A program made the position numbers and the translations under genes. Positions 24,710 to 44,037 of a DNA stretch of 44,037 nucleotides are shown piece after piece. The notes beneath the pieces were generated by a model. It saw only the letters and a program-made list of their open reading frames with translations. It did not search any database and was not told the DNA's origin. This DNA is from a virus, in the IMG/VR virus record IMGVR_UViG_3300023174_000285, positions 1-44,037 of that record. One strand, given 5' to 3'. Each line of letters opens with the position of its first letter. The stretch's first letter is position 1.

Positions 24710-25054
24710 ATGAAAGATTCACGAATTGGCGAAACCCTGTGGAGTGAATGGACTGGTAATTATTACCCCATCACTTCTAAATCCACTATTGTCTTTTTCA
24801 CAGAAGAGCACGTGGACGTTGAACATGATGTAGTCAAACGTGCATTAGCGTCTACAATCCAAAGGGGCGGTCATACAGACTCTCTTGGTCAAGCATTTGC
24901 AACTTTAGACTCTTGTTCTGTTGAACAAGGCTACGTTGGAATTATTGATGGAGACACGGAATTTTCCCTATGTGACATTAACGGAATGACAATCTATGAA
25001 GACACGGTAGAAAAGGTTATTCCAGTCACTTGGGTGAATATTAATGTCAGATGA
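24710..25054 (+). CDS. Hypothetical protein with a leaderless, operator-controlled start
   Basis: 114 residues. No recognised family. It has a TIVFFTEEHVDVEHDVVKRAL segment (in pieces) that suggests an alpha/beta domain and a negative charge bias. No cysteine cluster or membrane segment. TATAAT ends 11 bases before ATG 24710, so transcription starts within a few bases of the ATG and the mRNA is effectively leaderless. A perfect palindrome overlaps the -10 box and adjoins the start, suggesting tight repression. The WhiB-like gene overlaps its 3' end, so the pair may be a regulated operon with the WhiB protein as a candidate regulator. Confidence 0.6.
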   Translation: MKDSRIGETLWSEWTGNYYPITSKSTIVFFTEEHVDVEHDVVKRALASTIQRGGHTDSLGQAFATLDSCSVEQGYVGIIDGDTEFSLCDINGMTIYEDTVEKVIPVTWVNINVR

Positions 25055-25514
25055 TTTCAAAGATATGTCCTATCAAAAAGATGGGCTTTGTGCTAAAAAA
25101 GAAAATAAAGAATACATGGACTTCTTTTTTTCTGACAATCCAGAAGAAACAAATAAGGCAAAAAATTTGTGTTTTGCTTGTCCAGTAAGGAAAGACTGTA
25201 TTAAATATGCTTTGGAAAGCAAGCAGATTTGGGGTGTATGGGGTGGAAAAGATGAAAATGAAGTTCGTAGAACTTTATCTGTCGATGCTAATGGTGATGA
25301 ATATCGCAGAGGTCGCTATCCTCAGTGTGGCTACTGCTCTGCTCGTACTAGCAAATTAAAAACTTATATTGTTAATCTCACGGGTGGTGGTAGATGGACT
25401 ACTGCTCGTATGGTTGAATGTACCGAGTGTGGATTTAAATGGCGTAGTCGTACCAGTGCTAATGCTGTAAATGCATATCACCAAGAACGTGAAGAAAAAA
25501 AGTTTAAGAAATAA
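25044..25514 (+). CDS. WhiB-like Fe-S transcription factor with C-terminal zinc ribbon
   Basis: 156 residues. WhiB family: C16, C43, C46 and C52 (CFACPVRKDC) ligate a [4Fe-4S] cluster, and GVWGG at 64-68 is the family beta-turn. The protein would bind sigma factor region 4 and alter promoter choice of the host polymerase. WhiB-like proteins are found in actinobacteria and their phages, so this is strong host evidence. Beyond the WhiB domain, C95-x2-C98 (CGYC) and C126-x2-C129 (CTEC) form a four-cysteine zinc-ribbon-like domain, unusual in small phage WhiBs of about 80-100 residues. It overlaps the preceding gene by 11 bases and its tail is convergent with, and overlaps, the cytidylyltransferase gene by 11 bases. 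Confidence 0.9.
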   Translation: MSDDFKDMSYQKDGLCAKKENKEYMDFFFSDNPEETNKAKNLCFACPVRKDCIKYALESKQIWGVWGGKDENEVRRTLSVDANGDEYRRGRYPQCGYCSARTSKLKTYIVNLTGGGRWTTARMVECTECGFKWRSRTSANAVNAYHQEREEKKFKK

Positions 25515-25935
25515 TTCTCTTTTTTAATTCTGTTGTACTAATTCCATTTGTATATGGAAGAAATCCAAAACCTATGCTGTGCTCTTCTAGCCACTCTCTA
25601 GTGAAACCCATTTGTTTCATGTAGTCTCGGTCACACCAGTCTGTACCAGTAACTACAAAATCTGCTTTGCAATCTAGAATGACTTGCCTAGAGTCTTCGT
25701 TCCCGTAATTTTCAACTACTACGTCTACGTATCTACAGGCTGAAACTACTTCCATTCTTTCTTTTAAAGACATTACTGGCTTTTGACCTTTAAATTTTTC
25801 AACAAAACTGTCTGAGTTTACGGCTACTATCAAGACTCCGTTTTCACCAGCCATATCTTTTAATCTCTTTAAAAGTCTTACGTGACCAGAGTGAAATAGG
25901 TCGTAGGTTCCACCACTATAAATTCTTAATCCCAT
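25504..25935 (-). CDS. Cytidylyltransferase-family nucleotidyltransferase
   Basis: 143 residues. Nucleotidyltransferase of the glycerol-3-phosphate/ADP-heptose cytidylyltransferase type: GGTYDLFHSGH (residues 8-18, with the HxGH signature H15/H18) and TNGISTTELKKRI (about 128-140, ISTT-like motif). It activates a phosphorylated polyol or sugar with CTP or a related NTP. It fits with glycan or teichoic-acid-like synthesis, and it lies next to a GT-like gene. The substrate cannot be told from the sequence. ATG directly follows the neighbouring stop (TAAATG). The end overlaps the convergent WhiB-like gene. Confidence 0.85.
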   Translation of the reverse strand: MGLRIYSGGTYDLFHSGHVRLLKRLKDMAGENGVLIVAVNSDSFVEKFKGQKPVMSLKERMEVVSACRYVDVVVENYGNEDSRQVILDCKADFVVTGTDWCDRDYMKQMGFTREWLEEHSIGFGFLPYTNGISTTELKKRIIS

Positions 25936-26742
25936 TTAAATCTCTAATTCTTTGTAATTTGCGTAAAAATCTTCTACGGACAAAGTTTTTGGTTCTCTAA
26001 ATAACTTATTAATTTTTTGAACGATGTCAATGTATTTATCTCTACTGTATCCATGAACTTTTTCTAAGTACATTGAAAAGCCGTTTATAGTTATTGAACC
26101 CTCTTCGGATGCTCTTTGTTTATTATAACTACTTGAAATTGGATGTTCTAATTTAACGTTGGCATCTCTGTAGCAATATTTATTGTTATAGATTGCATAA
26201 GCAGAAATAGCGATATCAATCCCCCACCCACTAAACATTTTTTCTGACTCTATAAGATTGCTATCTATAGATGACCATTGATAGAAGTCATTTAGCACAA
26301 TGCAAACTTCTCTACTAAGTGCAAAATGAATACCGTTAGTGCAAGTAGTCAAATATAAATTTTCATACTTAATTGATTGTCTTATGTAAGAACGTTCCCC
26401 AGACCAGTCGTCGTATGTGGCGTTTGGTGCAAAAGCAACTAAATTTGGATTTTCAGAAAAAATCTTTTCTATGTATTTTGTATATTCAACGTAGTTATCG
26501 TATCTAGCATCTCCAGCACTAAATATAAAAACTTCAGCATCAGTAGATAAAAATTCTTTTACTGCGTTAAAAAAGTGCCTGTAATACCTTACGTCTTCTT
26601 TTCTTTCCCAGTGTTCTGTGACTTCTGGCTGTGCAGACACATTAAAAAACTTATGGTCTATCTCCCCATAAAGTTGTTCACTTATGTTGATGCAATTTTT
26701 TATTGCACCATCCCAAGCGATTATGTAAGTTTTGCTTTTCAC
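25936..26742 (-). CDS. Glycosyltransferase-like protein
   Basis: 268 residues starting GTG at 26742, 2 bases after the previous stop. The FIFSAGDARYDNY segment (near residue 73) and GWGIDIAISAYAIYN (near 172) fit a GT-A-like glycosyltransferase, with an acidic metal-binding motif near 78. This is a fold-level assignment; catalysis is not proven. Together with the neighbouring cytidylyltransferase it suggests making and attaching an activated polyol or sugar. The gene is AT-rich relative to the metallophosphoesterase upstream of it. Confidence 0.45.
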   Translation of the reverse strand: MKSKTYIIAWDGAIKNCINISEQLYGEIDHKFFNVSAQPEVTEHWERKEDVRYYRHFFNAVKEFLSTDAEVFIFSAGDARYDNYVEYTKYIEKIFSENPNLVAFAPNATYDDWSGERSYIRQSIKYENLYLTTCTNGIHFALSREVCIVLNDFYQWSSIDSNLIESEKMFSGWGIDIAISAYAIYNNKYCYRDANVKLEHPISSSYNKQRASEEGSITINGFSMYLEKVHGYSRDKYIDIVQKINKLFREPKTLSVEDFYANYKELEI

Positions 26743-31481: not shown

Positions 31482-31525
31482 GGGGGGTTAGGTAATCCCT
31501 ATGCCTAATCCCCCTTCTAATTTTT
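31482..31525 (+). terminator. Terminator-like hairpin in leader of glycosyltransferase
   Basis: The arms GGGGGGTTAGG (31482-31492) and CCTAATCCCCC (31504-31514) form an 11-bp stem with one G-U, loop of 11, followed by TTCTAATTTTT. It may end the primase transcript or attenuate the following gene. The AAGGAG ribosome binding site lies at 31530-31535. Confidence 0.75.
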
Positions 31526-31539
31526 CAACAAGGAGAATA

Positions 31540-32499
31540 ATGAAGATTACAATTGCCACCCCAATGTACGGTGGAATTTCTAAAAGTGTTTATGTAGCCT
31601 GTCTAAATGAACTAATGAGCAAACTAAATGCTGCTGGTCACTCTGTAACTCATTCGTCAATTACTAATGAAAGTCTTATTACTAGAGCAAGAAATACTTT
31701 GACTCATATGTTTTTAAAGAGTGACAGTGATGCACTGCTCTTTATTGACGCAGACCATGGATGGATTTCAGACGATATTGTAAAGATGGTCAACTCAGGT
31801 AAAGACCTGATTGGTGCTATCTATCCAATGAAGTCAATCAATTGGGATAATGTCCACGCCGCAGCAATTTCTGGAAAACCTGCTAGTGAACTTTCTCTAT
31901 ACTCTGGAAATTTTGCAATTAACTTCTTGCCAGAAAATCAGGAATTTAGGGGAGACGAACCTTTTAAGGTTCGAGACATTGGCACTGGAATGATGTTTAT
32001 TCGTCGTAATGTATTTGAGACGGTTGCCCCACTATGTAAGAAATACAAAAACAACTCTCCTAGTCAGGACATTGCTATGGGTGAAGAAATGGTTGAGTAT
32101 TTCCCAACAATTATTACTGAGGAGCCAGAAAGTATTTTGCTATCTGAAGACTATGCTTTTTGTCACTTATGGCGTCAGACTGGACACAATGTCTACGCTG
32201 CACCTTGGGTAAGAATTACTCACGCTGGTGAATATAACTTCTCTGGATTCTTCCTTAGAACTCTTGAAATTCAAAATCAAATGGCTGTCGCTCAGGGTGA
32301 TGTAAATCCACTAGATAAGGAAGAGGGGTTTACAGTAAATACCCCTAGCCATCCTGTGGACGTACCATTGAGTCAAGCAGATTCTTTACAGTCGTTGGAT
32401 GCCATTTTCGATGATTCTGAGTCGGAATCTGGTCTCGATTCAGACCATCAGCAATCTGACGAAACGACTGACCAGCAGAACGCTCAAGATAAATCCTAG
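31540..32499 (+). CDS. GT-A glycosyltransferase with an antisense-derived C-terminal tail
   Basis: 319 residues from ATG 31540, which has AAGGAG upstream. An upstream ATG at 31501 lies inside the terminator loop and is not used. The N-terminal ITIATPMYGG, the LLFIDADHGW metal motif (D70-x-D72), and a later GTGMMFIRR segment (about 148-156) match GT-A fold glycosyltransferases. LSEDYAFCHLWRQTG near 208 is the acceptor-side loop. The last about 51 residues are Ser/Asp/Gln-rich, low-complexity, and encoded entirely antisense to the C-terminal end of the recombinase gene. The core enzyme ends about where the overlap starts. The substrate is unknown. Confidence 0.72.
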   Translation: MKITIATPMYGGISKSVYVACLNELMSKLNAAGHSVTHSSITNESLITRARNTLTHMFLKSDSDALLFIDADHGWISDDIVKMVNSGKDLIGAIYPMKSINWDNVHAAAISGKPASELSLYSGNFAINFLPENQEFRGDEPFKVRDIGTGMMFIRRNVFETVAPLCKKYKNNSPSQDIAMGEEMVEYFPTIITEEPESILLSEDYAFCHLWRQTGHNVYAAPWVRITHAGEYNFSGFFLRTLEIQNQMAVAQGDVNPLDKEEGFTVNTPSHPVDVPLSQADSLQSLDAIFDDSESESGLDSDHQQSDETTDQQNAQDKS

Positions 32500-33010
32500 C
32501 CTTTACCTCTTCTGAGGTTTTGTTCTTAGGACCCATATCCACGCCCCAAACGATGCCACGCTCACGGCGGTCTTTATGCACGTCTTTTTGACGGGCAGCA
32601 ATAATGCCTCGTTCCATCTCTGCTAGAGCAGACATAATTGTGACTACGAAGCGTCCCTGATAAGAAGATGTATCTAGGTTTAGGTCTAGCATTACAAGAC
32701 GCCAGCCTTTAGTGTTGGCTCTGTCAATGATGTTCAGAAAGTCCTTCGTAGAGCGTGCTAAACGGTCTATACGGGTCACAAAAAGAGCGTGGGCTTCTCC
32801 GTTATCTAGTCTCTTTAAGGCGTTTGTGAGGGCAGGGCGACCCGAAATAGACTTACCTGAGCGACCCTCTTCCCTCACTAATTCATACTCGGTGAAGCCA
32901 GCCAATTCCGCTGCTTGCTGTAACTGTCGCTCTTGAACATCTAGGCTAACTCCGTCATTTACTTGAAGTTGAGTAGATACTCTGGCGTACAGAAGTGCAA
33001 TCTGTGACAT
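32345..33010 (-). CDS. Serine recombinase (resolvase/invertase type)
   Basis: 221 residues. The N-terminal resolvase domain has YARVST with catalytic S12, SGRPAL near 56, TRIDRLARS near 79 and a helical GRFVVTIMSALAEMERG near 119. The C-terminus carries a short HTH (SFRQIADGLNRDQIPTQ). The size fits resolvases/invertases rather than large serine integrases of 450-700 residues. It could invert or resolve DNA, or serve as a small integrase. No attachment sites are identified. A GTACA-type inverted repeat lies in its promoter region. The C-terminal coding region overlaps the convergent glycosyltransferase by 155 bases. Confidence 0.9.
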   Translation of the reverse strand: MSQIALLYARVSTQLQVNDGVSLDVQERQLQQAAELAGFTEYELVREEGRSGKSISGRPALTNALKRLDNGEAHALFVTRIDRLARSTKDFLNIIDRANTKGWRLVMLDLNLDTSSYQGRFVVTIMSALAEMERGIIAARQKDVHKDRRERGIVWGVDMGPKNKTSEEVKARIYLERSAGQSFRQIADGLNRDQIPTQNHRKWHPTTVKNLLDSMVRPQDG

Positions 33011-33780: not shown

Positions 33781-34632
33781 TTATTTGACAATATTTACTA
33801 TTATATCTCCATATAAGCCAGCCTCTTCAGTAAGCCTCTTTTCGGAGATTAGTGCGTATTCAGGATTTAACTCAATGCCTATGTAGTTTCTGCCATTTTG
33901 TAGTGAAACTACACCAGTAGTGCCAGAACCAGAAAAAATGTCTAAAACTGTATCGTTTGGCTGTGAACCTGCTAAAACGCAAGGCTCTACAAGTTCTGTA
34001 GGGTAAACAGCAAAGTGTGCACCCTTAAATGGTTTTGTATTTACGCTCCACACCGAGCGACGATTACGTTTACCGCTGAGGCTATCTTCACGTACAGCCT
34101 CGTGGTCATAAAAGTATTTAGGACTCTTGCTTAAGAGAAAAACGTATTCGTGAGCCTTAGTTGGTCGGTCTTTTACTGGCTCTGGCATAACGTTTGGTTT
34201 GTGCCAAATAATATCGCTACGCAAATACCAGTCATCAGCCTGTAAAGCAAGAGCAACTCTCCAAGGAATACCAATTAGGTCTTTAGATTTTAATCCTTCA
34301 ACTTTATTATTTAAAGCAATCGATTGACCGTTACGACCATTGGAATATTTAGGGTCTTTGTAGTCTCCCTTGTTTCCAGTTCCAACATAAGAATCCCCAA
34401 GATTCAACCAAACCGTGCCATTGTCTTTTAGGACACGTCTGACGTCACGAAAAATCTCTACTAAATTCTCTATGAACTCGTATGGAGTATCTTCCTGACC
34501 TAACTGTCCTTCAGAACCGTAGTCACGCAATCCCCAGTATGGTGGGGACGTGATGACAGTTTGAACTGATTGGTCTGGTAGTAGGGCTAACGCCTGACGT
34601 ACGTCTCCGTTTAAGATTTGAGCAGTGTTCAT
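33781..34632 (-). CDS. DNA methyltransferase (N4-cytosine/N6-adenine, beta-class-like)
   Basis: 283 residues. The catalytic motif TSPPYWGL at 28-35 precedes the SAM-binding motif DIFSGSGTTGVV at about 235-246, the order typical of beta-class DNA methyltransferases. The SPPY signature is typical of N4-cytosine enzymes but is also seen in N6-adenine ones. It could protect phage DNA from host restriction. No cognate endonuclease is certain nearby, though the 33115 gene is weakly nuclease-like. Start ATG at 34632. Its 5' end lies next to the divergent zinc-finger peptide. The stop at 33781 is followed by a promoter and a terminator. Confidence 0.9.
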   Translation of the reverse strand: MNTAQILNGDVRQALALLPDQSVQTVITSPPYWGLRDYGSEGQLGQEDTPYEFIENLVEIFRDVRRVLKDNGTVWLNLGDSYVGTGNKGDYKDPKYSNGRNGQSIALNNKVEGLKSKDLIGIPWRVALALQADDWYLRSDIIWHKPNVMPEPVKDRPTKAHEYVFLLSKSPKYFYDHEAVREDSLSGKRNRRSVWSVNTKPFKGAHFAVYPTELVEPCVLAGSQPNDTVLDIFSGSGTTGVVSLQNGRNYIGIELNPEYALISEKRLTEEAGLYGDIIVNIVK

Positions 34633-34695
34633 TGGTTAGATGGTACTACAAAACTAAAAAATAACCTAGCAATTGACGTGCGACAATTATTGTAT

Positions 34696-34869
34696 ATGGG
34701 ACAACAAAATAAAGTGCCAGACCCTTACAGGTGTGAATCTTGTAATAAGCATTTTGTCGTCAGTCTTCTCGCTCGTTGTTGCGAAATGAAGCACGATGGT
34801 GCTGTCTTTGAGAGAAGACCTGAGCAAGAGCCTAGACCTAAATCTAATAAAAAAACTAAAGATGTTTAG
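34696..34869 (+). CDS. Small zinc-finger-like protein
   Basis: 57 residues from ATG 34696. In-frame alternative starts exist at GTG 34678, TTG 34690 and TTG 34618, the last overlapping the methyltransferase. CESCNKHF...RCCEMKHDG gives a C-x2-C and a C/H pair that could bind one zinc ion. The C-terminus is Lys/Arg/Pro-rich and disordered. The 11-bp sequence ACAATTATTGT just upstream is a near-palindrome that could be an operator. No family is identified, but such finger peptides are common in phages. Confidence 0.5.
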   Translation: MGQQNKVPDPYRCESCNKHFVVSLLARCCEMKHDGAVFERRPEQEPRPKSNKKTKDV

Positions 34870-34882
34870 TAAACTATTATGA

Positions 34883-35899
34883 ATGAGTACCGATAACCTA
34901 GTTCAAAAATCCGTAGCGTATGGTGGCAAACTTGCACCCTTAGTTATCTCTGATGGTCTAACTTCTGGAACTGGGCTAATGAACCCGTCTGTTTTTGTCA
35001 ATTCTAAAAATGAGATTTTTGTAAATCTGCGTCATGTAAATTACACGCTATATCATTCAGAAAATAATCAACGGTTCAATAGCAAGTGGGGGCCGATGTC
35101 CTACCTACATCCTGAGCAAGACCAAGCACTTCGCACAACTAACTACATTTGTAAGTTAGATGGAAACTTGTCTATGGTCGGACACGGAGTAGTTGATACT
35201 TCAGAACTGGATGTAAAACCCTTGTGGGAATTTACTGGTGAAGAAGATTGCCGTCTTGTTGAGTGGGATGGTAAGTATTACATTATTGGAGTAAGAAGAG
35301 ATACAACAACTCACGGTGAGGGTCGTATGGAACTTAGCGAGATTACTATCAACGAGGAGACTTGGGAAGTAAAAGAAGTATCTCGTATTCGCATTCCTGC
35401 TCCTGGAGCAAACAATTCTTACTGCGAAAAAAATTGGATGCCGATTTTAGATAAACCATTTCACTTTGTAAAGTGGACTTCCCCGACTGAAGTTGTCAAA
35501 ACTTACCCAGAACTTCCTGCTCGTTGCGAGCAGGTTATGTTGAATCAAGGACTTACTCCACCTAAAGACCAGCGTGGTAGTTCGCATGTTGTTCGGTGGG
35601 GAAATGTCTATATTGCTATCACTCACGAAGTTGATTTGTTCAAAAACTATCTTGACCAAAAAGACGGCATTTACAGACATCGCTTAGTTATTTGGGATGA
35701 ACAGTTCAACCTAATTGGGTTATCTCCTAGACCGCTTACATTCTTAGAAGCAAGAGTGGAGTTTGTCGCTGGTGCTGCTAAGTATGGAGACGATTTATTG
35801 ATTAGTTTTGGTGTTCAAGACAACGCTGCTTTTATTTTGAGAACGCCTAGGCTTGTTGTTGAGGAACTTATTTTGGAGGCATTGACTTATGAGTTCTAA
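34883..35899 (+). CDS. Beta-propeller, glycosidase-like protein (paralogue A)
   Basis: 338 residues. Blocks that recur at regular intervals (NPSVFV near 34, EEDCRLVEW near 118, EKNWMPI near 181, RGSSHVVRWG near 232, ARVEFVAGAA near 290, ISFGVQDNAAFI near 306) resemble the five-bladed beta-propellers of GH43/GH130-like proteins. The carbohydrate role is inferred, and catalytic residues cannot be fixed without structure. It is homologous to the protein at 42551. ATG 34883 follows the zinc-finger gene by 13 bases, and the end overlaps the TPR-like gene by 11 bases. It could cleave, bind or remodel a sugar on fibres or the host surface. Confidence 0.62.
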   Translation: MSTDNLVQKSVAYGGKLAPLVISDGLTSGTGLMNPSVFVNSKNEIFVNLRHVNYTLYHSENNQRFNSKWGPMSYLHPEQDQALRTTNYICKLDGNLSMVGHGVVDTSELDVKPLWEFTGEEDCRLVEWDGKYYIIGVRRDTTTHGEGRMELSEITINEETWEVKEVSRIRIPAPGANNSYCEKNWMPILDKPFHFVKWTSPTEVVKTYPELPARCEQVMLNQGLTPPKDQRGSSHVVRWGNVYIAITHEVDLFKNYLDQKDGIYRHRLVIWDEQFNLIGLSPRPLTFLEARVEFVAGAAKYGDDLLISFGVQDNAAFILRTPRLVVEELILEALTYEF

Positions 35900-36467
35900 T
35901 GAGATTATTGAAAGACTTGTTGTTGAGGCTTCTAATGACCCACTCAATCCTAAGAAAAACTTTGATATTGCCGTTGAGTATGAAAAGTTAGGTCAGACGG
36001 CATCTGCTGTTGGATTTTATCTTCGTGCTGCGGAATACGGCTATGAAACTGAACCTCTTATTGCCTATGCTTCTTTACTTAGAATATCTATCTGCATTGA
36101 GGGTCAGAAAGATAGAAGGAATACTGTCTCTAATGTAATTCTTCAAGCAATTGCTCATTTACCAAAAAGACCTGAAGCATATTTTCTTTTGTCAAGATTT
36201 TATGAAAAAGATGGAAACTGGCAGGAGTGCTACACCTACGCAAGCGTTGGCTTGATGGTGTTGGACAATCCTTTAGTTCGACTTCCCGTTGGTATCGATG
36301 GCTATCACGGAGACTATTCTTTAGAGTTTCAAGTTGCTATGAGTGCTTGGTGGATTGGTCGAAAAGACGAAAGCATAAAAAGACTACAAGAACTAAGTCT
36401 TAGGGAAGATTTGAGTGTTGTTTATAGGTCAGCAGTTTTTGATAATTTGATAAAGGTTGGCATCTAA
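35889..36467 (+). CDS. TPR-like helical repeat protein
   Basis: 192 residues. Helical pairs with TPR-like spacing, including DIAVEYEKLGQTASAVGFYLRAA (in pieces, near 26-48) and YFLLSRFYEKDGNWQECYTYA near 98-118. TPR proteins often serve as protein-binding platforms, frequently fused or adjacent to glycosyltransferases. It sits between the propeller-fold protein and the FkbM methyltransferase, with overlapping starts and stops (11 bases and 1 base), so the three genes are probably one functional unit. No catalytic motif is seen. Confidence 0.65.
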   Translation: MSSNEIIERLVVEASNDPLNPKKNFDIAVEYEKLGQTASAVGFYLRAAEYGYETEPLIAYASLLRISICIEGQKDRRNTVSNVILQAIAHLPKRPEAYFLLSRFYEKDGNWQECYTYASVGLMVLDNPLVRLPVGIDGYHGDYSLEFQVAMSAWWIGRKDESIKRLQELSLREDLSVVYRSAVFDNLIKVGI

Positions 36468-37135
36468 TGTTGCTATTTGATATTGGAGCAAATAGAGGCG
36501 ATGCCACTATTGCTGGGATTGAGAAAGGCTACAAAGTTATTGCTTTAGAGCCAGCACCTAGAGTGTTTGCTGAGTTGGTTAGAAATTTTATTTATGAGCC
36601 TAATGTTGTACCACTCAGACTGGCAGTGTCAGAGACTGGTGGGGAGCGTATTGAGTTTTATGAATGCGTAGAAGATGGTCTATCTACTATGGAAAAGTCT
36701 TGGCTGACAGACCCAACGATGCCGTACAACGGTAAAGAATTTAGAACTATCTATGTCAATACCTGCACTATGGATTGGTTGGTTGAACAGTATGGTAAGC
36801 CTGACTTAATCAAGATTGATGTTGAGGGGGCGGAGTGGTCTGTACTTCGTGGTATGACTAAACACTCTGGAAAGATTGCTCTTGAATGGACTCAAGAAAC
36901 AATGGGCGAGCACAACAAACAATTGCAATATTTAAAATCAATTGGATATACAAAATTTAAATTTCAATTTATTGAAGACCACTTGCTAGAGCCAGAAGAA
37001 GACTGGCGACCAATAACTAAAAATGTAAACCTTGAGTTTATTCGCAAAGAGCAAGAAGAGTGGTGGACTTTTGATGGATGGAAGCGTTCTAACCTAAGAC
37101 CAACTGCTGATGTTGGAATGCTTTGGGTTATCTAG
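36467..37135 (+). CDS. FkbM-family methyltransferase
   Basis: 222 residues. DIGANRGD at 4-11 is the SAM-binding loop, VIALEPAPRV near 23 is the strand-2 acidic segment, and LIKIDVEGAEWSVLRG near 118 is the FkbM signature. Such enzymes O-methylate sugars or glycan-linked substrates. Start ATG overlaps the previous stop. The end is convergent with, and shares CTAG with, the fibre assembly gene (stops overlap). Adjacent to the TPR-like and propeller-fold genes, it may methylate a sugar they handle. Confidence 0.85.
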   Translation: MLLFDIGANRGDATIAGIEKGYKVIALEPAPRVFAELVRNFIYEPNVVPLRLAVSETGGERIEFYECVEDGLSTMEKSWLTDPTMPYNGKEFRTIYVNTCTMDWLVEQYGKPDLIKIDVEGAEWSVLRGMTKHSGKIALEWTQETMGEHNKQLQYLKSIGYTKFKFQFIEDHLLEPEEDWRPITKNVNLEFIRKEQEEWWTFDGWKRSNLRPTADVGMLWVI

Positions 37136-37137
37136 CC
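37127..37137 (+). repeat. Direct repeat copy bounding fibre cassette (left)
   Basis: GTTATCTAGCC spans the FkbM stop codon and the end of the first minus-strand fibre gene. An identical 11-bp copy is at 42331-42341, at the other end of the cassette. Confidence 0.4.
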
Positions 37138-37323
37138 TAGAATTGCTTCGATTTCTTCTTCGGTAAGACCGAGTGCTCGCAGTTTTGCTAGGGCAGATTG
37201 TCTAGTTGCTAATGCTTGTGCTTCTTGTTCTGCCGCTTGCTCTCTAATAGCAATTTCTTCTGGTGTTTCATCTCTTTCAATTATTTGACCAGTGGTGCAG
37301 TTTAGTTCGATTATTCTATTCAT
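37132..37323 (-). CDS. Small fibre-associated protein (XkdW-like)
   Basis: 63 residues from ATG 37323. A longer frame upstream is fibre gene sequence read in another frame and is rejected. NRIIELNCTTGQIIERDETPEEIA at the N-terminus (in pieces) followed by an Ala/Gln-rich helix and LGLTEEEIEAILG resembles the small XkdW-like proteins that follow tail fibre genes in many phages, often as fibre assembly partners. Start overlaps the fibre gene stop by one base, implying coupled translation. Confidence 0.6.
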   Translation of the reverse strand: MNRIIELNCTTGQIIERDETPEEIAIREQAAEQEAQALATRQSALAKLRALGLTEEEIEAILG

Positions 37324-40300
37324 TAGTTTATTCCGTATAGATAGGCGGTTCCAGTGGCTGAAGTAAAACTTCCAGCACCAGCCGAAAAGGTTATTGAAGT
37401 AATAGCAGCACTTGTTGATGCGATTCCCCATCTTGAAGATTGTGCTGATGCACCAGTTGAACCTGATATCCACATAGTAGGTCTTGTATTTGCATAATTT
37501 GGTATCTCTATTGTTATCATATCTCCTGCTGTCGGTGCTCCAGAACTTAGTGCAATTGATGTTCCAGCAGTGGCAATAGTTGCTGTTGATGAGCCTGTGT
37601 TGTAGTGAGTGGTTGCCACTGTAGCACCACCATTAACAGTCATCTGTAAGTTTCCAGTAATTGACCCGATGTTTGTAAAAATTATCTGAACAATAAGTTT
37701 TTTGTATGTTCCTGGAATTGAAGTAAATGAAGGTGCTGCTCCAGAGAAAGCAAGTGGAGTACCGCTACCTGAAACAGCATTGTATGTTCCTGTCACTCCT
37801 TGTGCACCAGTTGCACCTTGTGTCCCTGTTCCAGTTAGACCTTGAAGACCAGTGGTTCCCTGAATACCTTGAATACCTTGTACAGAGATGCCTTGAATAC
37901 CTTGTAAACCTTGTAACCCCTGAGTACCTTGTATAGATGTTCCCTGAAGACCTTGAATACCTTGTGAGCCTGTAGTTCCTTGAGTGCCCTTATCTCCATT
38001 TCTAACGAATTCAACTGAAATTGCTTCTCCGTTAGAGAAGACTGCACTTCCATATCCCGAACCAAAATAGAACGGGTTAGAAACCGCTAGTCCAATAGTG
38101 ACTAAAGTAATACCTTCATCTAGATATGAATTTAAGGAATTTACTTGCCAAGTAACTTCAAAATTTCTAGATAAAGATTTTATCTTTACAAAACCCTTTA
38201 CTGTTGATGTTAAGTTAAAAGTGTTTAGGGCTAAAGAGCCAAGTAAAGAAGCCCATGCTGGAATAAGTATTTCTGAAGTATTTAGTGCTGTTGCACCATC
38301 TCTAAATGTGACCAAATCGGAGTAGTAATATTCTGCATAAGTCCAGTCCGTGCTGAAGGTGCTTCGATATCCTGTAACTCCTTGTGCCCCCGAAATACCC
38401 TGTAACCCTTGTGCTCCAGAAGTACCTTGAATACCTTGGACAGAGAGACCCTGAGTTCCTTGAATACCCTGAGTTCCTTGGCGACCTTGGATACCTTGGA
38501 TACCTTGGATACCTTGGATACCTTGGATACCTTGGATACCTTGTGCACCAGTTGTTCCTTGTGAGCCTGTAGTGCCCTGCGTACCGTCAACCCCTTGAGT
38601 ACCAATTAAACCTTGAGCACCTGTAGTACCTTGTGAGCCTGTAGTGCCCTGTGAGCCAGTAAAACCTTGTAAACCTGTAAAACCTTGTAAACCTGTTAGA
38701 CCTTGTAGACCAGTGGCACCTTGTGAGCCTGTTAGACCTTGCGTTCCAGTTAGACCCTGTGTGCCAGTTGTGCCTTGAGAGCCTGTAGTTCCTTGTAGTC
38801 CTTGTGAACCAGTCGAGCCTTGAATACCTGTGAGACCTTGGATACCAGTTAGACCCTGAGAGCCTGTAATACCTTGAGTGCCTTGTAGTGTGTAAGTAAC
38901 TTGAGTTACTGTAACAATTACAGAAGGAACGGCTGGATGCGGTACAGATAGGTTGGCTGCTTGAGCAAATATCCTAATGTTGGTGTCTGGAGTAGCCCAC
39001 ATCAATTGGTAGTAGTCACCAGCATTTGCCTCGAAAACAAAGTTCCAAGCGGCAACCAGTTTTTCGTCTTTAGTTAGAGCAATTTCTGTGTCAGTGGCTG
39101 CCACATCTGCACCATTTTTACGCAGCCAAATGTCTACTTTGTCTGTTCCGTTGTTGGTTTTATCAAATTGAGCAGAAAACTGAAGGTTATAAACTCCAGC
39201 GTTGGCTATCGTAATCCGACTACCTGAAACAACTGTTACACCAATTCCTTCTGCATCAAAACTGTTTAAAGTCATTGCATAAGGGGTGTTTACTAATGCA
39301 GCATTTTGGATTGTTGTATCCCAGAAACTACCCCAGTTGGCAACGGTTCCACCGAGACCTGCGTCTCCTTTATCACCTGTGCGAACGAAAGTGACATTTA
39401 CATCAGTTCCGTTAGCAAAAGATGTTACCGAGCCAGACAGATAAACGATTGGAACAGCAAAGTATCCAGTTGATTGGGTGTGTGCTCCGTTGATGGCGTA
39501 GTACGCAAAGTTGGCTGAGTTGCCAACCTGCTCCATTTTGAAGTGTCCCTTAATGGTTGAAGTTGAGTCATCAATAGTGTCTAGATACGCTTGGTTATCT
39601 ACAGAATTAAGGTCTAAAAAGTCAATGTAAAGTGAAGTAGCAAGTGAAAAGTTAGCGTTGTTTAATTTAAGGTTTCCAGAACCTGGGTCGCTATTAGTCG
39701 TGTTGGTTAAGTAGTTGTAAGTAAATACAGCACCACCGAATGAACCAGTCTCACCTTGAATACCTTGTGTTCCAGTTGCACCCTGTGTGCCTTGAGTTCC
39801 TTGAGCACCTGTTATTCCTTGCACACCTTGCAAGCCAACTAAACCTTGTAGTCCAGTTATGCCTTGAACACCTTGTAGTCCTTGGGTGCCTTGAGAGCCA
39901 GTTGTACCTTGAACACCCTGAAGTCCTTGAACTCCTTGTACACCTTGAATACCTTGGATTCCTTGCAGACCTTGTAATCCTGTTGCACCTTGAGTTCCAG
40001 TTGTTCCCTGTGCTCCAGTAGTTCCTTGAGAACCAACTAAACCTTGAGTTCCAGTTGCACCCTGAGTTCCCGTGATGCCTTGAGAACCTGTAATACCTTG
40101 TGAGCCAACCAATCCTTGAGTTCCAGTTGCACCCTGTAATCCTGTTGTACCCTGTACACCAATTACGCCTTGAGTACCTTGAGCACCAATAACGCCTTGT
40201 ATGCCCTGAGTGCCTTGAGTGCCTTGAACTCCTTGTGTGCCTTGTACGCCCTGAGTGCCTTGTAAACCGACTGCACCTTGTAGTCCAGTTGCACCCTGAG

Positions 40301-40583
40301 TACCTACCGAACCTTGTGTACCAGTTATACCCTGTGCACCTGTAACTCCTTGCGAGCCAGTTGTTCCTTGAACTCCAACGATGCCTTGGATGCCCTGAGC
40401 ACCTTGTGCACCTTGAAGCCCTTGTACACCTTGAGTGCCTTGTACACCTGTAAGACCTTGTGCACCAGTGACTTGAGTTGTGACAACAATATCCCAAGTA
40501 GACCCTGTCCATTTCCAGGTACGCTCGCCTACCGTAAATGTTTCATTTACGGATGGGGAGTTTGGAAAATCAATCGAGGGCAT
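37323..40583 (-). CDS. Collagen-like tail fibre protein
   Basis: 1086 residues. The N-terminus (PSIDFPNSPSVNETFTVG, then RTWKWTGSTW) is a common tail-attachment module. Three blocks of collagen-like G-x-Q triplets follow: about 40470-39745, 38886-38375 and 37990-37787 in coordinates, rich in GTQG, GIQG and GLQG. They form trimeric helices. Between them are globular beta domains. Two have a similar VEFVR[NT]GDKG ending. One between them (NWGSFWDTTIQ... IANAGVYNLQFSAQF) resembles C1q/TNF-like jelly rolls that often accompany collagen-like stalks. The C-terminal beta domain is probably receptor binding. SD GGAGA precedes ATG 40583. The long repeats may vary in copy number between isolates. Confidence 0.9.
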   Translation of the reverse strand: MPSIDFPNSPSVNETFTVGERTWKWTGSTWDIVVTTQVTGAQGLTGVQGTQGVQGLQGAQGAQGIQGIVGVQGTTGSQGVTGAQGITGTQGSVGTQGATGLQGAVGLQGTQGVQGTQGVQGTQGTQGIQGVIGAQGTQGVIGVQGTTGLQGATGTQGLVGSQGITGSQGITGTQGATGTQGLVGSQGTTGAQGTTGTQGATGLQGLQGIQGIQGVQGVQGLQGVQGTTGSQGTQGLQGVQGITGLQGLVGLQGVQGITGAQGTQGTQGATGTQGIQGETGSFGGAVFTYNYLTNTTNSDPGSGNLKLNNANFSLATSLYIDFLDLNSVDNQAYLDTIDDSTSTIKGHFKMEQVGNSANFAYYAINGAHTQSTGYFAVPIVYLSGSVTSFANGTDVNVTFVRTGDKGDAGLGGTVANWGSFWDTTIQNAALVNTPYAMTLNSFDAEGIGVTVVSGSRITIANAGVYNLQFSAQFDKTNNGTDKVDIWLRKNGADVAATDTEIALTKDEKLVAAWNFVFEANAGDYYQLMWATPDTNIRIFAQAANLSVPHPAVPSVIVTVTQVTYTLQGTQGITGSQGLTGIQGLTGIQGSTGSQGLQGTTGSQGTTGTQGLTGTQGLTGSQGATGLQGLTGLQGFTGLQGFTGSQGTTGSQGTTGAQGLIGTQGVDGTQGTTGSQGTTGAQGIQGIQGIQGIQGIQGIQGRQGTQGIQGTQGLSVQGIQGTSGAQGLQGISGAQGVTGYRSTFSTDWTYAEYYYSDLVTFRDGATALNTSEILIPAWASLLGSLALNTFNLTSTVKGFVKIKSLSRNFEVTWQVNSLNSYLDEGITLVTIGLAVSNPFYFGSGYGSAVFSNGEAISVEFVRNGDKGTQGTTGSQGIQGLQGTSIQGTQGLQGLQGIQGISVQGIQGIQGTTGLQGLTGTGTQGATGAQGVTGTYNAVSGSGTPLAFSGAAPSFTSIPGTYKKLIVQIIFTNIGSITGNLQMTVNGGATVATTHYNTGSSTATIATAGTSIALSSGAPTAGDMITIEIPNYANTRPTMWISGSTGASAQSSRWGIASTSAAITSITFSAGAGSFTSATGTAYLYGIN
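38484..38543 (-). repeat. 9-bp tandem repeats encoding G-I-Q triplets
   Basis: At least six in-phase copies of ACCTTGGAT (plus-strand sense) encode a run of GIQ triplets in the collagen-like fibre. Near-identical tandem repeats allow slipped-strand length variation that preserves the reading frame. Confidence 0.92.
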
Positions 40584-40598
40584 GTGTCTTGTCTCCTA

Positions 40599-40805
40599 CT
40601 AACTCAAGTCGTCTAGTTCTTGCTGGTGCGTCTCGATGGCTGCCTGAATTGCTGATATGTTTGCAGTGGCTTGGTCTACTGCGGACTGATTACCTAAAGC
40701 CTCGGCTAACTTTAAATTTAATTCATTCTGGTAGCCCTCAAGGTTGAGTGCCTGAATACGGTCAGTTAGCAACTGAGCCTTTACTTCTGGAGATACATTA
40801 AACAT
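40599..40805 (-). CDS. Small helical protein between fibre genes
   Basis: 68 residues, almost entirely helical (QLLTDRIQALNLEGYQ, then AVDQATANISAIQAAIETHQQELDDLS in pieces). It is probably a coiled coil. Similar small proteins lie between fibre genes in other phages, where they serve in fibre assembly or as fibre adaptors. The start ATG at 40805 lies 8 bases after the upstream fibre gene ends, and the stop is 15 bases from the large fibre gene start. Confidence 0.58.
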   Translation of the reverse strand: MFNVSPEVKAQLLTDRIQALNLEGYQNELNLKLAEALGNQSAVDQATANISAIQAAIETHQQELDDLS

Positions 40806-40813
40806 TTTTTTCC

Positions 40814-41854
40814 TTATGCGTTTGCGATGGTTGTAATAGTTCCCGATGAACCACGATACTTCAGAGCACCTGCTTCAACATACAAGATACCGCCACCAGT
40901 TGGGTTAGATGATGGGACAGTTGTTGAGTTTCCTATAAAGGTGACTGCTTGACCGCCACCATAACTGCCACCCACAGAATTTAAAAATATATTTCTGTTA
41001 GGACTGACACCCATTGAAGTAACACCGCTAGAACTTAAAATACCAGAACTGGTTAATTGAATTGTTGGCACAGATAGATTACCGCCAGAAGAAATGTTTG
41101 CTAAAACTGTTCCTGCGGAGTTTTGCCATTCCTGCAAGTTAGCAGACTGAGAAGCAGCACCACGAATAACAGCACCAATTTGAGTGCTAGAAGCAGCAGC
41201 GATACTTAAGGCAGCAGAGAACTCAATTGGAGTTCTGACTTTTAAATTACCTGTATTACCAAAACCACCAAGAACGGTTGAAGCAGAATTGACAATATCT
41301 AAAATGCTTACGCTTTGACCAGATGAGGCTTGCAAAGTCAATGGAACTGTTGATGTAGAAGCAGCGGTAATCAGTCCTGAGAATCCAAGTTGAGCCGATG
41401 TCGATGTTCCTGAGTTTGTTATAGGTGCGGTGACTGCAATGATACCTGATGGACCTAAATAACTATTTGATGTCTCTACCCAGTAGCCATCGTATCGAAT
41501 ATACATTTGGCTAGTTGTTGAATTGAACCAAGCATCGCCGACATTTGGGTTTAAAGGTGCTGTTTCAGATACGGTGTAAGTTCCTCTAAATCCTTGCAGA
41601 CCTGTAGTTCCTTGGATACCTTGAGTACCCTGTATGCCTTGGATACCTTGTATTCCCTGAGTACCCTGAACACCTGTAAGACCTTGAATACCTGTCGTAC
41701 CCTGAACACCTTGTGTTCCTTGGAGACCTATTGCTCCTTGCGGTCCCCACCCGGTGACTTTTACTTCATTAGTAACTTCTTGAACAATAACTTTGTTAGC
41801 GTCAAGAGGGTTTATTTTTACTGTTGCTCTTTGGTCATTAAATTCGACTGACAT
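40814..41854 (-). CDS. Second tail fibre protein with a short collagen-like block
   Basis: 346 residues. The N-terminal part is a beta adaptor (VEFNDQRATVKINPLD), and a G-x-Q collagen-like block of about 18 triplets follows (about residues 35-90). Then comes a segment, APLNPNVGDAWFNSTT, that is typical of phage fibre proteins, and a beta/coiled region rich in Ser/Thr/Gly ending in IYVEAGALKYRG-like residues (actual ILYVEAGALKYRG). It shares its collagen type and codon repeats with the large fibre, so the two proteins may form mixed or successive fibre segments. Start overlaps the next upstream stop by one base. Confidence 0.82.
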   Translation of the reverse strand: MSVEFNDQRATVKINPLDANKVIVQEVTNEVKVTGWGPQGAIGLQGTQGVQGTTGIQGLTGVQGTQGIQGIQGIQGTQGIQGTTGLQGFRGTYTVSETAPLNPNVGDAWFNSTTSQMYIRYDGYWVETSNSYLGPSGIIAVTAPITNSGTSTSAQLGFSGLITAASTSTVPLTLQASSGQSVSILDIVNSASTVLGGFGNTGNLKVRTPIEFSAALSIAAASSTQIGAVIRGAASQSANLQEWQNSAGTVLANISSGGNLSVPTIQLTSSGILSSSGVTSMGVSPNRNIFLNSVGGSYGGGQAVTFIGNSTTVPSSNPTGGGILYVEAGALKYRGSSGTITTIANA

Positions 41855-42222
41855 TATCTAGTCACCTCAGCCGAAACTCTAAAATTACCTTCAAGCAATC
41901 TAGTTACTACTCCACCACCAGACACCAACTCTAGGTCGTAAACATATTGACCTGCGGTTAGAGCCGCTGTGTTAGTGGCGGAGATAAGTAAATCTACTGT
42001 CCCTGCGATTCCACCTAAAGTAATAGTTCCAGTATTGCCAGCAGTTGTAGATAAAGTCGCAATTATGGTGTTAGAACTGACATTATCTCTAACTTGCATA
42101 CGGGCAGTGTAGCCAGTCAAATTATATGCGTCTCTGGCTGAGTCAGTCCAAGTAATTTGACGTTGGAAAGTAGCACCTTGTTGACAGGTGATGTTGTAAA
42201 GTCCAGCAATTCCGCAAGTCAT
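41854..42222 (-). CDS. Baseplate/fibre-attachment beta protein
   Basis: 122 residues. ITCQQGATFQRQITWTDSA (near 11-29), DAYNLTGYTARMQVRD near 31 and a C-terminal RLLEGNFRVSAEVT resemble the N-terminal beta module of BppU-type proteins that link fibres to the tail. It is first in the minus-strand fibre cassette, which agrees with an attachment role. A candidate -10 (TATACT-like) lies just upstream but the -35 is unclear. The 109-base gap 42223-42331 shows no gene. Confidence 0.7.
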   Translation of the reverse strand: MTCGIAGLYNITCQQGATFQRQITWTDSARDAYNLTGYTARMQVRDNVSSNTIIATLSTTAGNTGTITLGGIAGTVDLLISATNTAALTAGQYVYDLELVSGGGVVTRLLEGNFRVSAEVTR

Positions 42223-42325
42223 AGGGTACCGTTCGGGAGAGTATAGTTACTATTATTTTACAATAAAAGTAGACTAATGACTTATAAAAATAGACGCACT
42301 TCACCTAGGATTCCTAAGCGGAGTG

Positions 42326-42341
42326 GGCTAGTTATCTAGCC
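42326..42341. repeat. Hairpin overlapping DUF7455 stop and 11-bp repeat copy
   Basis: GGCTAG (42326-42331) and CTAGCC (42336-42341) form a 6-bp stem with loop TTAT. The sequence GTTATCTAGCC at 42331-42341 duplicates 37127-37137. No U-tract is obvious. Confidence 0.4.
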
Positions 42342-42535
42342 AATAAACGTTCTGATTCATCCAGAACTTCTAATGCAAGGGCAGATAATAAATCTTTATT
42401 CTCTGTCCAGTGGTGGAGGCAAAATAGTAAGTCTCCTGACTCAAGTTTGACGTAAACATACGCTTGGGAATTACAAGCGTCGCAGCGGTCAGTAGTATTT
42501 AATACGTAGTCGGTATCTTCTACTTTGTTCTCCAT
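42332..42535 (-). CDS. DUF7455-like zinc ribbon protein
   Basis: 67 residues. DRCDACNSQAYVYVKL then LLFCLHHW gives C-x2-C and C-x2-H, the pattern of the DUF7455-like small zinc ribbon common in actinobacteria and their phages. The role is unknown. The -10 TATAAT (42547-42542 on the minus strand) ends 6 bases before ATG 42535, so the mRNA would be leaderless. It is divergent from the propeller-fold paralogue B gene. Confidence 0.75.
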   Translation of the reverse strand: MENKVEDTDYVLNTTDRCDACNSQAYVYVKLESGDLLFCLHHWTENKDLLSALALEVLDESERLLAR

Positions 42536-42540
42536 GAAAG

Positions 42541-42547
42541 TATTATA
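42541..42547. promoter_or_regulatory. Divergent AT-rich -10 region between two starts
   Basis: Minus strand: TATAAT at 42547-42542, then 6 bases before ATG 42535. Plus strand: TATTAT at 42541-42546, 4 bases before GTG 42551. Both genes could be expressed from this 15-base gap, apparently without leader. Confidence 0.5.
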
Positions 42548-42550
42548 ACT

Positions 42551-43516
42551 GTGAACTTACCCGTTGATTATGTGAGTTTTGAGTCGCTTGGCGGAAACGT
42601 CAAAAAGGTTCTTCGATTCATTGACCCTGAAAATAAGCATTGGTCTGCTTTTAATCCTTCTATTGGCATATCTTCAGATGGCTCTATGGCTATGACAATT
42701 AGGTCTAGCAACTACATTCTCAACGCAAAAAATGGAAAATATGAATTAACTACTGGAAACCTTATAAAAAACAAAACGTGGTTTTGTAAAGTAGGGGAAA
42801 ACTTAGAAATTAGTGATTTATCTGAAATAAATTACTATCCAATTTCTTACATTAGCGTGAATGTAAAAATGACTAGAGGTGCTGAAGATGCAAAACTATT
42901 TTGGAGAGACGGGGGTTGGCAATTCACAGCAGTACTAGCAGAACCAGATTTTGGCATTCCTATTCCAAGAATTGGAGTATTTAAATTTGATGGAAAAAAT
43001 GCTCAACTAATTGAAATTGGACATTTTGAACAAGAAAAAATTAACGTTCCTGAAAAAAACTGGATGATGCCTTACCAAAAAAATCCTAATTTTGATTACA
43101 TATACAATGAAAATTCAATTATTAAAGATAACAAACTTTTAAAAGTTAGGGAATCTTCTGAAGCAATTAAAAATTTACGTGGTGGTTCTAATCTGTGGGA
43201 CTTGGGGGATAAGACATATTTAAGCCTCTCTCATAAAACTTTTGTTAAATGGGTAAATTACTATGATGCTAAATCTTTTGGGTATGTAAAAAATCACGTA
43301 AGAAATTATTATCACTACTTTGTTAGATATGACTATTTTGGAAAAATAATTCAAATGTCACCGCCGTTTAAATTTTTAGACTCTAACGTAGAGTTTGGTT
43401 CTGGGTTAATTGTCAAAAATAAAGATGTAATTGTTTCTTTTGGTGAAAATGACCGAACTGCCTATCTTGGTAAAATTGGTTTAGAGCAAGTTCTTAATAT
43501 TATGGAAGAGGTCTAA
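42551..43516 (+). CDS. Beta-propeller, glycosidase-like protein (paralogue B)
   Basis: 321 residues, start GTG 42551. The same ordered blocks as in the protein at 34883: FNPSIGI, GAEDAKLFW, EKNWMMP, RGGSNLW, NVEFGSGLI and VSFGENDRTAYL. These are more diverged and the gene is more AT-rich. It is again a GH43/GH130-like beta-propeller resemblance, without proven catalytic residues. Its last bases overlap the DUF3039 gene start by one. It flanks the fibre cassette on the side opposite to paralogue A. Confidence 0.6.
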   Translation: MNLPVDYVSFESLGGNVKKVLRFIDPENKHWSAFNPSIGISSDGSMAMTIRSSNYILNAKNGKYELTTGNLIKNKTWFCKVGENLEISDLSEINYYPISYISVNVKMTRGAEDAKLFWRDGGWQFTAVLAEPDFGIPIPRIGVFKFDGKNAQLIEIGHFEQEKINVPEKNWMMPYQKNPNFDYIYNENSIIKDNKLLKVRESSEAIKNLRGGSNLWDLGDKTYLSLSHKTFVKWVNYYDAKSFGYVKNHVRNYYHYFVRYDYFGKIIQMSPPFKFLDSNVEFGSGLIVKNKDVIVSFGENDRTAYLGKIGLEQVLNIMEEV

Positions 43517-43743
43517 TGCAAGAACTATTAGAATCTCCAATCAATCACAAGACAGACTTAGATGATTCAAATCAGTTTGCCCATTATGCCGATGCTGCCA
43601 AAGTAACAGAGGGGTATATTATGGGAACTCCTGTAATAGCCCTATGCGGTAAGGTATTTGTACCTCACAGAGACCCTTTAAAACTAAGGGTTTGTCCAGA
43701 GTGTAAAGATATTTTAGATGCACTATTTGTTGATTCTGAATAA
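43516..43743 (+). CDS. DUF3039-like protein
   Basis: 75 residues. HYADAAKVTEGYIMGTPVIALCGKVFVP (in pieces) followed by a C-x2-C (CPECK) is the pattern of the DUF3039 family, a small actinobacterial protein with a probable zinc site. No function is established. It is overlapped by the preceding gene by one base. Its presence supports an actinobacterial host. Confidence 0.82.
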   Translation: MQELLESPINHKTDLDDSNQFAHYADAAKVTEGYIMGTPVIALCGKVFVPHRDPLKLRVCPECKDILDALFVDSE

Positions 43744-43763
43744 TACCCCCTAATTTTTTTCGC

Positions 43764-43769
43764 TATACT
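43764..43769 (+). promoter_or_regulatory. Candidate -10 box for ribonucleotide reductase
   Basis: TATACT lies 38 bases before ATG 43808. A T-run (43754-43760) precedes it. No good -35 or strong ribosome binding site is seen, so this is tentative. Confidence 0.3.
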
Positions 43770-43807
43770 GATATCTCCAATCCCTACAAATCAGAATCGG
43801 TATTTTC

Positions 43808-44037
43808 ATGTCTCTTTTTTCTTTTGAACTTAATAAAGAATTTGTCAACAGTTACAAAGATAAGGAGTCACCATTTGGTTTTAAAGATGCTGGTGGAAAC
43901 TCCGTAGGAGAGATTACATTCCTACGTACCTATTCACGCAAGAAGGAGGACGGCACTAAGGAAACTTGGGCTGAAGTCTGTGAGCGTGTAACTAACGGAA
44001 CTTACTCTCTACAAAAAGATTACGCAAAGCAACAGCG
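43808..44037 (+). CDS. nrdJ: Class II (B12-dependent) ribonucleotide reductase, N-terminal part
   Basis: Partial: 76 complete codons before the window ends. SPFGFKDAGG and ITFLRTYSRKKEDG, then TWAEVCERVTNGTYSLQK, match the N-terminus of adenosylcobalamin-dependent ribonucleoside-triphosphate reductases. The enzyme reduces ribonucleotides to supply dNTPs and uses cobalamin as radical source, with a catalytic domain beyond the window. The ATG is at 43808; no other in-frame start is better. It follows the DUF3039-like gene. The assignment is from sequence resemblance to this family and the partial length, so the class II call is likely but not certain. Confidence 0.8.
   Translation, partial: MSLFSFELNKEFVNSYKDKESPFGFKDAGGNSVGEITFLRTYSRKKEDGTKETWAEVCERVTNGTYSLQKDYAKQQ

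Follow-up and report, generated by a model that had tools for sequence, protein, structure and literature searches.

A GH130/GT108-like propeller gene set beside phage tail fibres and its proposed role in virion glycosylation

We analyzed a 44,037-base stretch of viral DNA (IMG/VR record IMGVR_UViG_3300023174_000285, hereafter the window; probably a fragment) in which three overlapping genes converge on a cassette of collagen-like tail fibres and encode a five-bladed propeller predicted to resemble GH130 and GT108 enzymes, a tetratricopeptide repeat (TPR)-like protein, and an FkbM-family O-methyltransferase. We propose that this gene set acts in the manner of a module for virion glycosylation, its key enzyme being GH130/GT108-like; the most likely reading, which we hold with moderate confidence, is a cytoplasmic system that glycosylates and O-methylates the phage's own virion fibres. 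A first-pass annotation of the same DNA had suggested that the phage modifies its fibres in this way, and it remains the best reading on the strength of the fold, an invariant residue set, the coupled TPR and methyltransferase genes, GT-A and epimerase neighbours, and fibre adjacency; the specificity for collagen that it also assumed is not supported. More tentatively, and at somewhat less than even confidence, a GH130/GT108-like propeller held by a TPR protein and paired with one of several interchangeable finishing enzymes (methyltransferases, GT25, ATP-grasp, radical SAM) may form a widespread, modular and self-contained viral system for fibre glycosylation and O-methylation that actinophages share with cyanophages and partly with giant viruses. 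Related records and a WhiB gene at 25044-25514 suggest that the source of the window is a freshwater actinophage.

The three genes occupy 34883-37135 on the plus strand. Propeller 1 and the TPR gene share 11 nt and the TPR and FkbM genes 1 nt, as first annotated, and the fibre cassette that they face lies on the minus strand. On the far side of the cassette, and divergent from its assembly-like open reading frame (ORF) at 41854-42222, we found a second propeller gene, absent from the first-pass annotation, whose product is 23% identical to propeller 1 (BLASTP E 9e-14). The features of the locus are as follows.

34883..35899, plus strand: propeller 1, 338 amino acids (aa), GH130/GT108-like five-bladed propeller, putative inverting sugar transferase or phosphorylase-type enzyme (model with predicted template modelling score [pTM] 0.87; top Foldseek matches GH130 and GT108; VIA Z 22.6; active-site set invariant in 117 homologues)
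35889..36467, plus strand: TPR-like protein, 192 aa, proposed scaffold or acceptor-binding partner (TPR_17, E 3.5e-5)
36467..37135, plus strand: FkbM-family O-methyltransferase, 222 aa (PF05050, E 2.7e-16; TIGR01444, E 1.9e-23)
37323..40583, minus strand: collagen-like tail fibre, putative acceptor, 1086 aa (PF01391, E 2.4e-66; tail-fibre PHROGs)
40599..40805, minus strand: small ORF within the fibre cassette, 68 aa (phrog_25083, E 4e-4, unknown function)
40814..41854, minus strand: second collagen-like fibre protein, 346 aa (tail-fibre and collagen-like minor tail PHROGs)
41854..42222, minus strand: fibre-associated protein (phrog_1084, E 1.6e-28; phrog_3304, "L-shaped tail fiber protein assembly", E 1.5e-11)
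42551..43516, plus strand: propeller 2, paralogue of propeller 1, 321 aa, with the same invariant residues
31501..32499, plus strand: GT-A glycosyltransferase-like protein (phrog_1574), of a family found directly 5′ of the propeller in relatives

The propeller fold and its putative active site

No sequence family matched propeller 1 above its cut-off. We built an AlphaFold2 model from an alignment of 32 homologues, and it is predicted to be a GH130-type five-bladed propeller. Foldseek searches with this model placed GH130 phosphorylases and GT108 Leishmania mannosyltransferases on top (7fir, E 2.4e-9; the MPT-2 mannosyltransferase 6q4z, E 1.9e-8). In VIA, rows 1-21 were all GH130-type (Z 19.5-22.6), the best match for the predicted model being 5ay9 (Z 22.6 over 279 residues, root-mean-square deviation 3.4), and the GT108 structures 6q4w (Z 17.1) and 6q4x (Z 16.9) came under the GH130 rows, level with GH43. 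These GH130 and GT108 matches share 8-16% identity with propeller 1. Profile-profile alignment against four close GH130 proteins was set aside, as it returned only a 16-column match round an Asp at a probability of 2.6%.

Comparison of 117 distinct homologues, of which two are the window copies and three come from cellular contigs, showed that N34, E121, D122, E182, K183, N184, W185, H248, Y264, H266, E293, and D313 (propeller 1 numbering) are identical in all; R50 and R231 are conserved in 116/117 and R148 in 115/117. The putative active-site set comprises N34, E121, D122, K183, H248, and D313, and its counterparts in propeller 2 are N35, E112, D113, K169, H228, and D301. HMMER alignments of low score (10.1 and 1.1 bits) pair D122 and D313 with 9fj8 chain positions 93 and 282. 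PMC4264767 numbers these Teth514_1788 residues consistently one lower, as Asp92 and Asp281, and the available text of that paper gives the two of them and Asn28 as mannose binding. N34 was matched to the −1 subsite Asn by position only. In GH130 hydrolases, the phosphate-binding basic residues are replaced by Glu, according to the available text of PMC4599007. R50, K183, R231, and H248 were assigned to these basic positions by spacing, and since these Arg, Lys, and His residues are invariant or nearly so, under that putative mapping the propeller would be a phosphorylase- or transferase-type enzyme.

It is improbable that the propeller is instead a non-catalytic, lectin- or chaperone-like partner of the fibre and that the methyltransferase acts on protein side chains. 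Lectins are often propellers, the weak sequence matches ranked above GH130 are Photorhabdus lectins, and the radical SAM/SPASM and DUF6445 fusions described below suggest protein modification. However, a GH130-type active-site set that is invariant in all 117 homologues, three of them cellular, exceeds what binding would need, and the fusions and the coupling with glycosyltransferases and epimerases also argue for an enzyme.

The propeller-TPR unit and its exchangeable partners

The gene set is widespread in uncultured viruses; relatives of the propeller occur in at least 599 viral stretches, of which we retained the best 80. The TPR-like protein of the window scores 24.2 bits against TPR_17, just below the cut-off of 24.4, and relatives in three loci exceed it (L050, 31.6; L140, 27.2; L141, 24.5); it also matches part of the glycosyltransferase family phrog_13126. 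The FkbM protein scores far above its cut-offs (PF05050, 60.6 versus 22.7 bits; TIGR01444, 83.5 versus 37.7). Together with the GH130-type model of the propeller, these matches agree with the gene identities first assigned. A propeller gene precedes 97 of the 101 distinct TPR ORFs. Of the 96 pairs measured in related loci, 94 have overlapping genes, mostly by 8-14 nt.

What follows the TPR gene varies. A separate FkbM gene does so in 45 of the examined loci, and FkbM is fused to the TPR protein in 14 complete ORFs. Among seven scanned longer TPR ORFs lacking a close FkbM match, six carry a fused Methyltransf_24 domain and the seventh (L041) a marginal FkbM match (L053 and L065 fell outside the scan); a separate Methyltransf_24 gene follows the TPR gene in a group of six loci, one of which was scanned. 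GT25, ATP-grasp, or GT2-TPR genes take this place in one locus or two each, so that the third position is exchangeable among FkbM, other methyltransferases, GT25, GT2, and ATP-grasp. The metagenome-assembled Synechococcus phage DSL-LC02 encodes a 717-aa TPR-FkbM-radical SAM-SPASM protein (L141:12959-15112), a combination that hints at additional protein or glycan chemistry; a collagen-like protein and a tail fibre border the stretch that holds it. In Synechococcus phage S-SCSM2R, whose record gives a WH7803 host, the TPR protein occurs with DUF6445. Because the domains and genes attached after it vary, we infer that the TPR protein is a carrier for exchangeable finishing enzymes. We also note DUF6445 fused to TPR in a cyanophage (L140:12962-14827) and, in another, as a separate gene 3′ of the TPR protein (L141:15109-15702).

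A direct sign that such parts function jointly comes from a Nocardiaceae metagenome contig, in which GT2, TPR, and propeller form one 682-aa protein (L230:8813-10861). Next to this fusion gene lie one gene resembling radical SAM/HemN and another resembling strictosidine synthase. The propeller fold also occurs, in the viral structure library, within giant-virus proteins annotated as a fucosyltransferase (Solivirus), a polysaccharide pyruvyl transferase (Satyrvirus), and a LicD nucleotidyltransferase (Indivirus).

The coupling bears on whether these are simply sugar-metabolism or defence genes that entered a variable fibre locus as unrelated cargo and do not function together. The exchangeable third gene and the independence of collagen and propeller in fibre-anchored loci (see below) would fit such cargo, but the propeller-TPR overlap is retained across divergent phages and the cellular contig carries the GT2-TPR-propeller fusion; we regard this explanation as the most doubtful of those considered.

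Fibre regions, sugar genes, and the target of modification

A collagen-like segment lies within 3 kb in 41 of the 80 propeller loci and in 0 of 80 control loci anchored on SNF2. Among loci with flanks of 8 kb or more in both directions, collagen was found within 8 kb in 11/12 propeller and 2/22 control loci. The contrast looked very strong because the SNF2 control samples another genome region, and p values for collagen proximity are overstated since the loci share kinship; we therefore keep this comparison solely as evidence for adjacency to fibre regions. In 21 long contigs, collagen scored above cut-off in 9/10 with a propeller and 3/11 without, two of these three (G018 and G019) looking much alike and the contigs often possible fragments. 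Collagen occurs within 6 kb of 65 distinct propellers, and among these the fibre was downstream on the opposite strand in 32, downstream on the same strand in 20, upstream on the same strand in 11, and upstream on the opposite strand in 2. A FastTree tree requires at least nine changes between these arrangements, and the fibre neighbourhood has therefore been rebuilt repeatedly. By eye, 8 of ten loci without long collagen repeats and with useful flanks have glycine-rich, fibre-like, or tail-type ORFs adjoining the module, and two (L036 and L068) have no clear fibre-type ORF beside it.

In the window, the convergence on a collagen-like fibre cassette is confirmed by 219.8 bits to PF01391 in the 37323-40583 fibre, the tail-fibre PHROGs, and the assembly-like ORF. 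The same fibre contains, at residues ~406-562 between collagen stretches, a domain like phage proteins annotated as complement C1q-like. A second control consisted of 80 loci fetched by a fibre-assembly-like gene. In 10 of these, as in the window, the assembly-like gene has a divergently oriented propeller-2-type gene as its close 5′ neighbour. The TPR unit occurs in four, all with collagen, too few to weigh.

Several results weigh against a fibre-glycosylation module. In the fibre-anchored control, the propeller was present in 5/38 loci with collagen and 6/42 without (Fisher p 1.0), so the propeller is tied to fibre regions and not to collagen specifically, and most collagen-like fibres exist without it; collagen as the specific glycosylation target, as was first supposed, is not supported. 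DSL-LC01 and three further propeller-2 loci have no collagen within 3 kb, and in L036 no fibre gene is visible near the module. Unrelated cargo genes often gather in fibre regions, and adjacency could therefore be passive. The propellers score 10.7 (propeller 1) and 15.4 (propeller 2) bits against PF04041 (GH130), below the cut-off of 26, and we accordingly do not file them as GH130. Collagen repeats in 92 loci with a propeller have 2.1% Pro at X and 55% Gln and 28% Thr at Y, and Thr at Y makes up 27.8% of 12,020 triplets with a propeller and 27.1% of 177 without. A view of collagen threonine as a marked substrate was dropped on this equal composition (only four loci lack the propeller). Thr glycosylation is a known means of stabilizing collagen, and the recombinant E. 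coli phage collagen EPclA, produced without any propeller-type module, is stable and not glycosylated (available text of PMC3368898), so collagen fibres need no glycan. With Thr content equal with and without the propeller, collagen Thr as the sugar site in these fibres stays speculation.

Sugar genes are recurrent neighbours of the propeller. Of 106 distinct propeller genes checked on their 5′ side, 45 had an ORF (≥100 aa) on the same strand that ends close by, 50 had none, and 11 had too little sequence. Eleven of the 45 ORFs belong to the GT-A family of window ORF 31501-32499 and two encode a nucleoside diphosphate (NDP)-sugar epimerase/dehydratase, a third locus being found separately (L077); NDP-sugar epimerase genes thus adjoin the propeller in L028, L074, and L077. 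The remaining ORFs are mostly fibre- or tail-like by eye. One, of 191 aa (L079:1088-1663), looks sulfotransferase-like by eye, yet has no Pfam match. A GT-A family member is present within 3 kb in 14/80 propeller loci versus 0/80 SNF2 control loci.

Within this GT-A family, D83 and D85 (DXD), E216 and D217 (ED), and H241 are invariant in 10 sequences. PF00535 (GT2) gave no match in 31501-32499, and the relative in L022 scored 21.4 bits, below the cut-off of 23.3. The model of 31501-32499 has a predicted GT-A fold (pTM 0.72; low confidence beyond residue 268). Its top Foldseek rows were mostly the collagen glycosyltransferases LH3 and COLGALT1 and Mimivirus R699, and VIA gave STIV A197 at Z 17.9, LH3 at 16.4, R699 at 15.0, COLGALT1 at 14.8, and generic GT-A folds at ~13. 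As the matches stand only 1.5-3 Z above generic GT-A folds, they are only a hint that this protein may glycosylate collagen in the manner of lysyl hydroxylases. Sequence searches for solved relatives found none for 21983-22990, 31501-32499, or FkbM, and one chance-level match for 25936-26742.

The first-pass annotation had linked three upstream glycosyltransferase-like genes and a cytidylyltransferase to the module; only 31501-32499 could be retained. ORF 21983-22990, which has no family match, is a core gene of this phage group, found in 60/80 control loci and in 11/11 long contigs without a propeller. ORFs 25936-26742 and 25504-25935 occur in 3/80 propeller loci versus 8/80 and 10/80 control loci and were likewise rejected as module parts. 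The region 25504-26742 reads as a separate small sugar cassette, in which a nucleotidyltransferase (heptose adenylyltransferase/glycerol-3-phosphate cytidylyltransferase-like) lies directly beside an ORF of unknown family.

FkbM and glycosyltransferase genes are common in polysaccharide loci, which counts for the view that the module alters the host surface glycan, for superinfection exclusion or receptor masking, and that its site in the adhesin region reflects receptor-adhesin co-evolution. Serotype-converting phage systems, however, usually have membrane proteins. No signal or membrane segment was found by hydropathy in the propeller, TPR, FkbM, or GT-A protein (maximum KD19 1.26), and cytoplasmic action on proteins before assembly therefore fits better than a change of the cell surface. 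The recurrent fibre adjacency, the TPR partner, and the fusion of methyltransferase to TPR protein also argue against a host-surface role, which we consider unlikely, even though propeller 2 of DSL-LC01 lies near cell-wall genes and such a role was proposed for glycosyltransferases of related freshwater actinophages (available text of PMC10202952).

Nor do we think it likely, and somewhat less so, that the module decorates another virion protein (capsid or tail tube) or virion proteins generally, the fibre neighbours then reflecting late-gene clustering. Capsid and tail-tube glycosylation in mycobacteriophages, as cited in the available text of PMC12619734, PMC11256854, and PMC13313380, and the propeller-2 loci without collagen favour this, but in most loci read the neighbours are fibre and not capsid genes. 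By eye, the module adjoins a portal-like ORF in L040.

Taking fibre modification as the preferred reading, we infer the following enzymatic direction, donor, acceptor, linkage, order of steps, and benefit. A first sugar would be placed by the GT-A enzyme (31501-32499) and/or a host enzyme, and the propeller would add a β-linked, mannose-like sugar from an activated donor while the TPR protein holds the enzymes and/or the fibre chain. FkbM might then methylate a sugar hydroxyl and so cap it, and propeller 2 might add a further or different sugar, before the modified fibres assemble into virions. Likely benefits would be fibre stability, tuning of adsorption, or shielding.

Other features of the region include a serine recombinase (integrase/invertase PHROGs) at 32345-33010, between the GT-A gene and the propeller module; a recombinase family gene is likewise found close to the propeller of DSL-LC01. 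An invertible fibre segment was considered and rejected, as no convincing flanking inverted repeat was present in the two stretches searched. Promoter and terminator scans stayed at chance level, no RNA families or tRNAs were found in the window, and 34000-44037 had no DNA-level match among phage records.

Comparison with known systems

We found no description of the propeller-TPR-methyltransferase gene set in the literature searched, which mostly excludes subscription journals and was available in part; by term counts, the main text of the paper assembling DSL-LC01 and DSL-LC02, as far as available, does not contain "mannosyltransferase", "FkbM", or "collagen". If the proposal is true, a large family (the ≥599 viral stretches above) would be named as virion-glycan enzymes, two or three compact proteins would be ready for expression and assay, stored β-mannan chemistry would be connected to phage host recognition, and routine sugar-coating of fibres by phages, with its effect on adsorption, would become directly testable. 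The module thus offers a concrete new route to study how viruses sugar-coat themselves.

GH130 and GT108 enzymes are already known (PMC8950772, available text). The propeller is predicted to share the five-bladed fold of the GH130 β-mannoside phosphorylases and the dual mannosyltransferase-phosphorylases of GT108. It may also share their Asn/Asp/Asp mannose-binding positions, and a Glu-Asp pair is common to them, as are Arg, Lys, and His at conserved positions (the mapping of the basic residues being putative). Unlike these enzymes, the propeller is virus-encoded, coupled to a TPR protein, and adjacent to fibres, and it falls below the Pfam GH130 cut-off, with 8-16% identity to its GH130 and GT108 structural matches. 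LH3, COLGALT1, and Mimivirus R699 have the GT-A fold predicted for 31501-32499 and are among its closest solved structures. Identity is, however, ~9-14%, the top VIA match is the viral STIV A197, and the LH3 and R699 matches span only part of those enzymes. BclA of Bacillus anthracis is a glycosylated, host-encoded protein with Pro-rich GPT collagen repeats; the fibres of the propeller loci likewise have collagen-like repeats with Thr as possible sugar acceptors but, unlike BclA, are Pro-poor at X, with Gln/Thr at Y. Mycobacteriophage virion glycosylation (Freeman et al. 2023, as cited in the available text of the three papers above) relies on actinophage-encoded enzymes for virion proteins, as proposed here. 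There, the targets are the capsid and tail tube, whereas here a GH130-like propeller, a TPR protein, and a methyltransferase, known from their genes, stand beside fibres.

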